NCBI GenBank assembly: GCA_913031145.1
Contig: CAJWCO010000023.1
Coordinates: forward strand, 1 to 37,991
Source: an uncultured Cellvibrionales bacterium
GTDB taxonomy: Bacteria; Pseudomonadota; Gammaproteobacteria; Pseudomonadales; Porticoccaceae
DNA: 37,991 bases
Direction: 5' to 3'
This document shows positions 20,725 to 24,035 of this stretch, piece by piece. The notes beneath the pieces were generated by a model. The model saw nothing but the letters and a program-made list of their open reading frames with translations, ran no database searches and was not told the DNA's origin. The first letter of the stretch is position 1, and every line of letters starts with the position of its first letter. The translations under genes were made by a program, and so were the position numbers.

Positions 20725-21525
20725 ATGGGTAACCCACCGACAATTTTGGGCAAGATACTCGATCGCAAAATCGTCGAGATTGAAAGCCGCCAACATCATC
20801 TATCGCTTGGTAGTTTGCGAGAAAAGAGTGCGTCTATGGGTCCCGCGCGGGGTTTCTCCAAGCGACTTCGAGAACGGGTTGCGTTGGGAGAGGCGGCTGT
20901 AATTGCTGAAATTAAGCGCGCGTCTCCCAGTCGAGGTGTGATTCGTGAGGATTTTGATCCAGTCTCTATCGCTATTAGTTACGCACGTGCAGGCGCTGCG
21001 TGTTTATCGGTGTTGACGGACGTGGATTTCTTTCAAGGGAGCGACGCTCATTTGACCGCGGTGCGTGCGCAGACCGATTTGCCCGTGTTGCGTAAAGATT
21101 TCGTAATTGATTCTTATCAACTCTACGAATCGCGCGTGATGGGCGCCGATTGTGTTTTATTAATTGTATCGGCTTTGCAGCCTAAGCGGCTTGCAGAGCT
21201 TTATCACTTAGCTCGCAGTTTGCAAATGGATGTGTTGATTGAAGTGCATGATGAAACCGAATTGGCGTTGGCTTTAGGTTTTGATGACGCCATCGTCGGG
21301 ATTAATAACCGTAACTTACATACGTTTGAAACGTCGCTCGAAACGACGTACCGTTTGTTGGATCACATACCGCCGCAGAGCTTAGTAGTGACTGAGAGCG
21401 GAATTCGTACGCGTGGTGACATTGCGGCGATGCGAGCGCGTAATGTCCACACATTTTTGATTGGTGAGGCATTTATGCGAAGTCCCGATCCGGGCGCTGA
21501 GTTGGCTGAGTTGGTTTCAGGTTGA
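20725..21525 (+). CDS. trpC: Indole-3-glycerol phosphate synthase
   Basis: Closes the indole ring from CdRP, releasing CO2. This is a monofunctional 266-residue TIM barrel, not fused to TrpF. Active-site residues are visible: Glu62 and Lys64 in AEIKRASPSRG, Lys124 in VLRKDF, Glu173 in LIEVHDE, then GINNRNLHTF and VTESGI. It is the last trp gene here; trpF, trpB and trpA are elsewhere. Its 3' end overlaps by 9 nt the extended frame of the convergent, broken CRP-family gene. The trpGDC-vfr neighbourhood is conserved with pseudomonads. Confidence 0.96.
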   Translation: MGNPPTILGKILDRKIVEIESRQHHLSLGSLREKSASMGPARGFSKRLRERVALGEAAVIAEIKRASPSRGVIREDFDPVSIAISYARAGAACLSVLTDVDFFQGSDAHLTAVRAQTDLPVLRKDFVIDSYQLYESRVMGADCVLLIVSALQPKRLAELYHLARSLQMDVLIEVHDETELALALGFDDAIVGINNRNLHTFETSLETTYRLLDHIPPQSLVVTESGIRTRGDIAAMRARNVHTFLIGEAFMRSPDPGAELAELVSG

Positions 21526-22215
21526 TTGACCTGAAGCCATTTTTAGTGTGGCGTCAAAAATAACCATGGTCTTCCCCATGCTGGACATTTGGCTATTTTT
21601 TTCGAGCTGCTTTAACACTCGCCCGACCATTTACCTCGAGCACCCGACTATAAGACCAATCTCTTGTCGCGTTATTTTTATTTGAATACCTTTTGGGTGC
21701 GTCATTGCGCTGGGTTGGTGGCAGAGGTCTAGGAGTGCCTGTCGAACACGCCCCGAGACATCGAGAAAGGTGAGATTACGGAGCTTGCGCGTGGTGTCTC
21801 TGAGACGTCTGGTGATTTGTCTATTAAGGGCGAGCAAAAAGTTGGGATGTTGAATACTTAATTGGCTAAATTTTTCGTAAGCGATTTCGGCAACGTCGCA
21901 GGCGGTCTTTGCACGCACCCATGTGCTGCAGGGCCTTTGTTCGAAAAGACCTAATGCACCGATAAAATCGCCGGGATTGAGATATTCGAGCATTAATTCT
22001 CGGTCTTCACCTTCATCCTCTAGAACCATGGTTGCGGACCGATCGATGATATAACGCAACGCGTTATCGACATGCCCCACGTATAAAATAGTCGTTTTGG
22101 CTGGATAATGCCGACGATGGCAATGCGATAAGAAAATATCTAAATTCTCAAGGTGCGGGGTTAGAGGTATAAGCGCCAAGTCAGCTCTCCCTATTAAATG
22201 ATGCGCCGCAGTCAT
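21517..22215 (-). pseudogene. Vfr/CRP-family regulator interrupted by an in-frame TAA
   Basis: From 22215 the frame encodes 194 residues closely resembling Vfr/CRP: HCHRRHYPAKTTILYVG, LNPGDFIGALGLFE, TFLDVSGRVRQALLDL and ITRQEIGLIVGCSR. It then stops at TAA (21633-21631). The same frame continues without a shift as MVGRVLKQLE, then GKTMVIF, to TGA at 21517, aligning with the rest of the CRP recognition helix and wing. The stop replaces the recognition-helix Glu (CRP Glu181), a one-base change from GAA. Two residues that contact cAMP in CRP also differ: Glu72 is Ala87 here and Arg82 is Cys96. The native C terminus is extended by about ten residues. Position after trpC matches Pseudomonas vfr. 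Pseudogene, sequencing error or readthrough are all possible. Confidence 0.85.
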
Positions 22216-22325
22216 TCGCCGCGCGAGTTTAACTGGTGCCTTGCTTAGTTAATATTAGTCAAGGTTTACATAACCGTCGGTTTTTTTGCACTTTTTTCTT
22301 TGAAGTATCTCGTTTTTTCGACTTT
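22216..22325. other. AT-rich upstream region of the CRP-family gene
   Basis: A 110-nt, T-rich tract on the plus strand with several runs of four to seven T, directly upstream of the broken CRP-family gene. TTGACT occurs on the minus strand near 22260, but I cannot pair it with a convincing -10. No gene is seen here. Confidence 0.3.
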
Positions 22326-22544
22326 TTAATCCGCTAATGAGTCGCGTAGGTTCGCGAACTTACTGCCTAGATCCAACGTTGAATCGACCGCTCGAGGCGT
22401 AATAACAAAGAAGGTAACGGCGGCGCCTTTTGGCGTTCTCGCGCCGAACATGCCAGTCATATGGGGCAAGTGGTCTTGCCATATGAATGCTCGTTGGTGG
22501 CTTACACGGCGCGCAGAACAAAAGGAACGGGGTCGCAGCTGCAT
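22326..22544 (-). CDS. Hypothetical small protein, doubtful
   Basis: A 72-codon open frame from ATG 22544 to TAA 22326. The product begins MQLRPRSFCSARR and ends FANLRDSLAD. I recognise no domain, signal peptide or membrane segment, and there is no Shine-Dalgarno before the ATG. It lies just downstream of a strong minus-strand terminator, so it would need its own promoter, and none is evident. The C-terminal half looks somewhat protein-like, the N-terminal half is Arg-rich and does not. It may be chance. Confidence 0.2.
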   Translation of the reverse strand: MQLRPRSFCSARRVSHQRAFIWQDHLPHMTGMFGARTPKGAAVTFFVITPRAVDSTLDLGSKFANLRDSLAD

Positions 22545-22556
22545 GGATTTTCAGAT

Positions 22557-22584
22557 AAAAAAAAGGAGCCTGAGGGAGGCTCCT
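22557..22584 (-). terminator. Strong Rho-independent terminator (minus strand)
   Basis: Perfect 8-bp stem AGGAGCCT/AGGCTCCT (22564-22571 with 22577-22584) and a 5-nt loop, followed on the minus strand by eight U (22564-22557). There is no U-tract on the plus side. It ends a leftward transcript that must start within 22.6-23.1 kb, where the only candidate is the short ORF at 22583-22762; the stem begins inside that ORF's stop codon. Confidence 0.85.
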
Positions 22585-22762
22585 AAAAATTCCTAATTTG
22601 ATTGCTAGGAAGGGGTTCGGTTAAGGCCGCCGATTTTGCAAGCCATAACCCTTCTTCAATATATGCGGCGGACCGCCATGAATCCAATGCATTATTTGCA
22701 TTTGTTGTATGTCCTGAGGTAATCAGACCGTCCTGTCGAAACCGTGCATAACACATAAACAT
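22583..22762 (-). CDS. Novel small protein (59 aa), unannotated size class
   Basis: A frame of 59 codons plus TAG, starting MFMCYARFRQDGL and containing NNALDSWRSAAYIEEGLWL and a tail ending SNQIRNF. It has a mixed, balanced composition with two Trp and paired Glu, unlike noise. The strongest support is position: its TAG (22585-22583) abuts the terminator hairpin, so something transcribed leftward ends exactly here. The frame is open upstream to a TAA near 22827, so the start is uncertain: ATG at 22762 or 22756, without a strong ribosome site. I do not recognise a family. No signal peptide or membrane helix is apparent. Confidence 0.45.
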   Translation of the reverse strand: MFMCYARFRQDGLITSGHTTNANNALDSWRSAAYIEEGLWLAKSAALTEPLPSNQIRNF

Positions 22763-23009
22763 ATCTAACTTTTTGCACGCGCGTTTAAATCGCCAAAACG
22801 AGGACGATCGGGTCTTTTTGAACGTTTAGCAACACGAGTACAGCAGTATTTTTGTAATACTGTGTCCTAGCCATGTGCCGATCTGCTTTTCCTTTGCGAC
22901 GTCGTGAATTTATTAATTGCCGCTAAAAAGCCATCACGGTGCTCGCCACGATCTGCTCTCCGACGACCGTATTATCGACGTTGAACGTATGTCTATCTCC
23001 GCCAGGCGC
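22763..23009. other. Gene-free stretch with a 19-bp inverted repeat
   Basis: No credible gene is seen on either strand between the small ORF and the LysR promoter. It contains CAGTATT-TTTGT-AATACTG (22844-22862), a perfect 7-bp inverted repeat about 80 nt upstream of the small ORF. It could be an operator or a short RNA hairpin. A 29-codon minus frame (22785-22874) spans the repeat but lacks a properly spaced ribosome site. Confidence 0.4.
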
Positions 23010-23038
23010 TTGACTTAAATATAAGCAAAACACATTAT
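23010..23038 (+). promoter_or_regulatory. Probable promoter of the LysR gene
   Basis: TTGACT (23010-23015), a 17-nt spacer and CATTAT (23033-23038) lie 46 nt before the LysR start codon. The stretch 23016-23060 is AT-rich and contains a second TATAAT (23051-23056) without a matching -35. Confidence 0.45.
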
Positions 23039-23084
23039 CCCTTTTAAGTTTATAATTTTATGGCATGACTTGTTGGGGTAAAAA

Positions 23085-24035
23085 ATGAATTTGCAAAAAC
23101 TATCAAGACTGGATCTAAATCTGCTCGTTGCATTGCAAGCACTCTTAGAAGAAAAAAGCGTAACTCGAGCGGCCCAACGCCTGTACATCACACAACCTGC
23201 GATGAGCCGCGTTTTACAGCGCCTTCGCCAGCAGTTAGATGACCCATTATTTACTCGCTCGGGAAATGAGTTGGTGCCAACGCCAAAAGCGAGCGATCTC
23301 AAGGCACGTCTTCCTAGGTTACTAGAAAATATTTTAGACATGGTCAGTAGTGGTGAGTTTGACCCTGCGGCATTCGTTGGAGAGGTCGTGATTGCAGTCC
23401 CTGAATTCTTTGCCATTTCGCTTGTCTCTAAATTGACTAAATTACTTAGTGAAACGGCGCCAGGGGTGGTGCTGTCGATTTCGAGCGATACTGATTCAGT
23501 CGAAGGGGAACTTGCCGCTGGCGTGCTCGACTTTGCAATTGATATTGATAAACCGTTGATCGACGATATTCAAGCGACGCATTTGACCAACTATCGGCCC
23601 TCTATCTGGATGCGCTCTGGTCACCCGTTGGCAAGTAAAGAAAACTTAACTCTGGATGAGATACTAGACTACCCATATGTTCAGTATTATTTATTGATTG
23701 CCAAGCGCGTTAGTGCTCGCACTGATGCACGATTTGACAAAACGTTGCGACGACTGGGTCTTAAGCGCAAGAAGGCGCTGGTTACCAAACAATTTATGAC
23801 AGCGATGGAGACCATCAGCGACACCGACTGTCTCATGGTTGCGGCGCGTTATGGGCATACTCTCGAAGCGGATATGTATCCAATAGTTCGAAAGAGTTTC
23901 CCGGCGGAGTTGCCCCACCAAGAAACCATTACCTTGGTCCTATTGCAACACACGCGGACGCTGGAATCTCCCATACACCAATGGATCCGTTTGGCCATCC
24001 AAAAGATTGTTGAGGAGCAGAACCAGTCGCGCTGA
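23085..24035 (+). CDS. LysR family transcriptional regulator
   Basis: A 316-residue LysR-type regulator. The N-terminal winged helix-turn-helix covers about residues 8-67 (LDLNLLVALQALLEEKSVTRA, with TQPAMSRVLQRLRQQLDDPLF). It is followed by an effector-binding domain with VVIAVPEFFA and a DFAIDI segment. DLNLL, and FTRSGNELVPT after the HTH, suggest the NodD/NahR/LeuO-like branch. Its target is unknown: it stands alone between the CRP-family gene and purD, with no divergent partner on its upstream side other than the 59-aa ORF on the opposite strand. GGGG lies about 7 nt before the ATG. The effector is not deducible. Confidence 0.9.
   Translation: MNLQKLSRLDLNLLVALQALLEEKSVTRAAQRLYITQPAMSRVLQRLRQQLDDPLFTRSGNELVPTPKASDLKARLPRLLENILDMVSSGEFDPAAFVGEVVIAVPEFFAISLVSKLTKLLSETAPGVVLSISSDTDSVEGELAAGVLDFAIDIDKPLIDDIQATHLTNYRPSIWMRSGHPLASKENLTLDEILDYPYVQYYLLIAKRVSARTDARFDKTLRRLGLKRKKALVTKQFMTAMETISDTDCLMVAARYGHTLEADMYPIVRKSFPAELPHQETITLVLLQHTRTLESPIHQWIRLAIQKIVEEQNQSR

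Follow-up and report, generated by a model that had tools for sequence, protein, structure and literature searches.

A vfr/crp gene has very probably been inactivated recently in the studied genome, that of a marine bacterium, and is now a recent pseudogene on the reverse strand of the window, the whole stretch of 37,991 nucleotides that was analysed. A CRP-like reading frame runs from 22215 to 21517 (-) and is interrupted by a TAA codon at 21633-21631, after which the frame continues unchanged (MVGRVLKQLE...GKTMVIF). The stop occupies the codon equivalent to Glu181 of CRP, a position that is glutamate in 47/47 aligned intact orthologues. The alignment comprises a subset of the intact orthologues that exist, 46 from family and order genomes and one from the 'uncultured Luminiphilus' contig S_MB80. 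A sequence-only reading of this DNA had recognized a CRP/Vfr frame with a same-frame continuation and had located the stop at precisely the Glu181-equivalent codon; the structural matches and the conserved locus described below bear out the first point, and the comparison with relatives bears out the second.

The part of the frame before the stop (21634-22215, -) scores 46.2 bits against PF00027 (cut-off 27.5) and matches the structures of Pseudomonas aeruginosa Vfr (7few, E = 5.8e-60) and Escherichia coli CRP (1cgp, E = 1.5e-58). The cyclic-nucleotide-binding domain lies at 21856-22116 (-). A complete Crp-type helix-turn-helix with its recognition helix is missing from the open frame, and the HTH_Crp_2 match (33.9 bits) appears only when the single TAA within 21517-22215 (-) is read through. 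In CRP, Glu181 recognizes the DNA half-site jointly with Arg180 and Arg185, according to an excerpt of PMC11253593. Conservation starts near codon 13 of the frame and an AGGGAG-like site lies upstream of a TTG codon at 22179, and translation therefore probably starts at this TTG and yields a product of about 182 residues (21634-22179, -), not the 194 first proposed. The truncated frame would contain the cyclic-nucleotide domain, the dimer helix, and the first part of the helix-turn-helix. Reading past the stop also carries the frame beyond the usual ...GTR end as a longer tail. The tail was considered as a second lesion and set aside as too weak, long tails being present in the intact copies of G065, G080, G091, G105, G110, and S_MB80.

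The frame is convergent with trpC (20725-21525, +), an arrangement common to the intact relatives, and the opposite side of the locus is bounded by a conserved lysR-type regulator gene (23085-24035, +). The same order is found in G013 and other intact relatives (the G001 contig stops short of lysR), and the matching neighbors identify the studied frame as a vfr orthologue. A terminator-like hairpin after trpC (window 21512-21539, +) falls within the extended tail of the broken frame. The non-coding gap between vfr and lysR (22216-23084) is occupied in G001 and G013 by a divergently oriented OsmC-like gene (57.6 bits against Pfam OsmC in G013) that is present in 2/14 genus genomes and absent from the studied one; no OsmC remnant was recognized in these 869 bases (best match E = 0.88). 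OsmC loss was considered as a marker of vfr loss and rejected. The loci of G077, G088, G069, G065, G074, and G075 carry vfr without an OsmC match, and those of G018, G029, G016, and G117 carry the OsmC gene without vfr. Because the two losses are independent in relatives, a missing OsmC gene alone is no evidence of vfr loss.

The gap also contains a conserved two-hairpin RNA element with an intrinsic terminator (22551-22635, -), a candidate small RNA for which Rfam has no family scoring over its cut-off at this position. Four of the 12 base pairs are changed on both sides in an alignment of eight sequences, and the single-sequence folding z-score is modest (-1.89). A covariance model built from these eight sequences of six genomes finds the element in 73/112 family genomes at E <=0.01, a threshold at which the weaker matches may be due to chance. 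In one genus it often occurs as two adjacent copies near vfr, and matches are also located at the locus in the vfr-less genomes G081, G070, G025, G018, and G029.

The premature stop is not the only damage to the gene. The position of Arg82 is arginine in 47/47 intact orthologues and cysteine in the studied copy, and the position of Glu72 is glutamate in 45/47, aspartate in the other two (G001 and G013), and alanine in the studied copy. An excerpt of PMC11253593 places Glu72 and Arg82 among the CRP residues that hold the cAMP phosphoribose. One glycine that is invariant in all 47 intact orthologues is replaced by arginine, and the equivalents of Ser83, Arg123, and Thr127 are retained. Counting the stop, 7 of 55 near-invariant columns are changed in the studied vfr; the maximum among intact copies is 4 (G080). 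In a smaller alignment the studied copy differed at 6/61 columns and the others at 0 to 4, except for the very divergent S_MB80 copy (L003), which exceeds the studied copy at 11/72. The stop removes the recognition helix, and the studied copy has lost cAMP-pocket residues that almost every intact copy retains. The gene is not the "otherwise well-preserved" sequence that it had first appeared to be.

Selection on vfr was analyzed with a codon model run on nine genomes using trpC as the control. The vfr omega on the branch of the studied genome was 0.064 compared to 0.036 elsewhere, a difference that is not significant (2dlnL = 0.60), and neutrality across the branch was rejected (2dlnL = 7.12), on a branch that is long (2.17) with synonymous change close to saturation. 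The trpC control omega was 0.0705 on the studied branch and 0.0910 elsewhere. Most differences between the studied vfr and that of G013 are at third codon positions (60, 27, and 131 at the first, second, and third positions of 211 each), and there are no internal gaps or indels before the stop. The rejection of neutrality, the intact pre-stop alignment with G013, and the third-position bias indicate that the pseudogene is recent, and the earlier suggestion of a very recent loss stands on an evolutionary scale. We read these codon comparisons as a gene that was under selection for most of its history and then failed late, and the time since its loss is probably a small share of the whole branch. 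The limits on the pseudogene reading include its single assembly and an omega on the gene's own branch that is not significantly above background.

Loss of vfr recurs across the family. Among the 14 genomes of the genus, intact vfr is present in G001 and G013, weak partial matches occur in G004 and G009, and nine others have none. trpC was located in 13/14, and trpC is followed by lysR with neither vfr nor OsmC between them in G002, G003, G004, G005, G006, G008, G009, G010, and G012; G007, whose contig ends within trpC, and G011, without a trpC match, were left out of the vfr-absence count. A search of 112 family genomes returned vfr matches in 90 at E <=1e-10 and in 86 at 1e-50, the broken studied copy included. 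Outside the genus, vfr is absent at the trpC locus of G081, G070, G025, G018, G029, G016, G117, G035, and G058, and matchless genomes without a whole readable locus (such as G034, G062, G071, G096, and G098) were left out of the loss count. A second broken copy was found in G076, a member of another genus, where vfr carries a frameshift, a stop, and a deletion (L086 4611-5149, -). Its close sister G077 has an intact vfr, and trpC, trpD, and trpE of the two genomes are 96-98% identical in DNA.

These states were mapped on a family tree of 47 selected genomes, 20 with vfr lost or broken, 26 with it intact, and G007 unscored. Parsimony gives seven changes, and the strongly supported branches force at least six. 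With an ancestral vfr and no regain allowed, the count is nine losses, which drops to eight if the genus's two vfr-less clades are sister groups. The G076 break is an independent event and one of the counted losses. The studied genome is placed beside G001, G013, and G007 with a support of 91 (SH-aLRT), or 69/84 in another tree, and its long branch makes this position unsure. Judged by eye, the matches across the family genomes do not support genome size as the driver of vfr loss. The description of the genome as streamlined is loosely right, but vfr is kept in relatives of about 1.4 Mb (G080, G085, and G110), and it is absent from G004 (2.6 Mb).

It is very unlikely that a truncated or read-through product still functions, perhaps by sensing ligand as a fragment or by pairing into dominant-negative dimers. 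Purifying selection along most of the branch and the uninterrupted alignment with G013 would suit such a product, but its pocket residues are altered, its recognition helix is gone, and no full CRP partner was found in the genome. The search for a second CRP/Vfr that had been proposed returned no other CRP-type DNA-binding protein above the Pfam cut-offs in the assembly, which is 97% complete. PF00027 is found elsewhere in one protein as a stand-alone domain without a helix-turn-helix, and HTH_Crp_2 is found at two places, each below the cut-off. G001 (contig 77) and G013 (contig 128) each have a further HTH_Crp_2 protein above the cut-off that was not found in the studied genome. Read-through is also opposed by the ordinary use of TAA as a stop in this genome, where it terminates 89/194 sampled stop-to-stop frames of >=300 codons and 5/10 neighboring window genes checked, and by the lack of a stop-reading tRNA among the tRNAs identified in the window and the sampled regions, together roughly one fifth of the genome.

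Misreading of an intact gene during sequencing or assembly has at best a slim chance of explaining the stop. One or two wrong bases would suffice, the frame after the stop remains recognizable, and there is a single assembly; against this, cAMP-pocket residues and further invariant positions have changed independently in the same copy. In-frame interruptions also look uncommon in a 471 kb sample of the genome. A dicodon scan of this sample yielded 32 same-frame junction candidates, of which one, a class III cyclase gene described below, was examined by homology, and 24/32, this cyclase among them, have a start codon <=10 codons after the stop, as expected for operon neighbors; the scan is not an unbiased rate, since it missed vfr itself and included a contig-17 stretch picked for the cyclase. 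One of the other eight candidates, around L096 6786 (-), is a heavily broken remnant that we take to be transporter-like. Recoding or pervasive error was considered on the basis of the scan and thought unlikely. The extra residue changes and the repeated independent losses in relatives disfavor both a lone sequencing error and a truncated cAMP or ligand sensor, the two alternatives raised when the stop was first noticed. A long-dead pseudogene whose frame survived by chance would account for the several lost invariant residues, and deserves almost no credence given the absence of pre-stop indels, the third-position bias, and the rejection of neutrality over the branch.

The recent inactivation of vfr may be part of a wider decay. 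A dCache-HAMP class III cyclase gene on contig 17 of the studied genome (L083 7210-5048, -) is interrupted in frame by a TAG and a TAA, and the corresponding gene in G013 and G001 is uninterrupted over 742 codons. Its cyclase domain is still open, and a shorter cyclase is possible. The two in-frame stops, in a gene that was examined for its function, are suggestive of decay across the cAMP pathway. This receptor-type cyclase was considered as the ancestral partner of Vfr and rejected because of its rarity; at E 1e-60 it was found among the 112 family genomes only in G001, G013, and the studied genome, with a partial 35% match in G033. An intact class III cyclase is located on contig 36 (L085 3634-10283) near a DUF6272 gene, a SpoIIE gene, and a stand-alone cyclic-nucleotide-binding protein that retains a GE...R-type pocket, a module that presumably resembles SiaABCD. 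Class III cyclase-domain matches are present in 14/14 genus genomes. It is conceivable, though doubtful, that marine lineages of the family have repeatedly dropped CRP/Vfr and retained class III cyclases and stand-alone cyclic-nucleotide-binding proteins, uncoupling cAMP signaling from transcription; all cAMP effects would then run through non-DNA-binding partners. A census of strict TGTGA-N6-TCACA sites (sites/reversed control: G000, 2/0; G001, 0/0; G013, 1/1; G010, 5/2; G005, 5/0) was uninformative about regulon decay, vfr carriers being not clearly richer by eye than vfr-less genomes.

CRP is usually regarded as a core global regulator of the Gammaproteobacteria. The inactivation of vfr may have begun when the lineage ceased to need cAMP-CRP control; selection on the gene would then have relaxed and left it heading for removal, as in other lineages of the family. 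If a product is made, it would be truncated, lacking the recognition helix and carrying a damaged pocket, and would be inert as a cAMP-dependent regulator. The locus between trpC and lysR is intact, broken (the studied genome and G076), or without detectable vfr in different relatives, and the family thereby provides a natural series of vfr intact, just broken, and absent at one locus. The close pair of G077 (intact) and G076 (broken) opens the order and cost of vfr loss to study. Among the matches listed by a narrow search confined to one open library, none reported that Halieaceae had lost CRP/Vfr, and a word search of PMC10100682, on Halieaceae genomes, returned neither 'crp' nor 'vfr'.

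The studied copy shows an important regulator gene undergoing ordinary decay, caught at a stage that is unusually clear, and is not a new kind of system. The best solved match is P. aeruginosa Vfr (7few and 2oz6; 205 bits over residues 7-182 of the truncated frame), from which the studied frame differs by stopping before the recognition helix and by lacking the Glu72 and Arg82 equivalents. The vfr gene presumably adjoins trpC in Pseudomonas too. E. coli CRP/CAP (1cgp and others) shares the domain order at about 200 bits, whereas the cAMP- and DNA-contact parts of the studied copy are damaged or missing. The G001 and G013 genes are orthologues at the same locus with about 69% protein identity to the studied copy, and they differ in their intact frame, their OsmC-like neighbor, and the aspartate at the Glu72 position. 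The G076 gene is also broken, with cysteine at the Arg82 position, no OsmC match at the locus, and RNA elements present, but its frameshift, stop, and deletion mark a separate inactivation of the same regulator.
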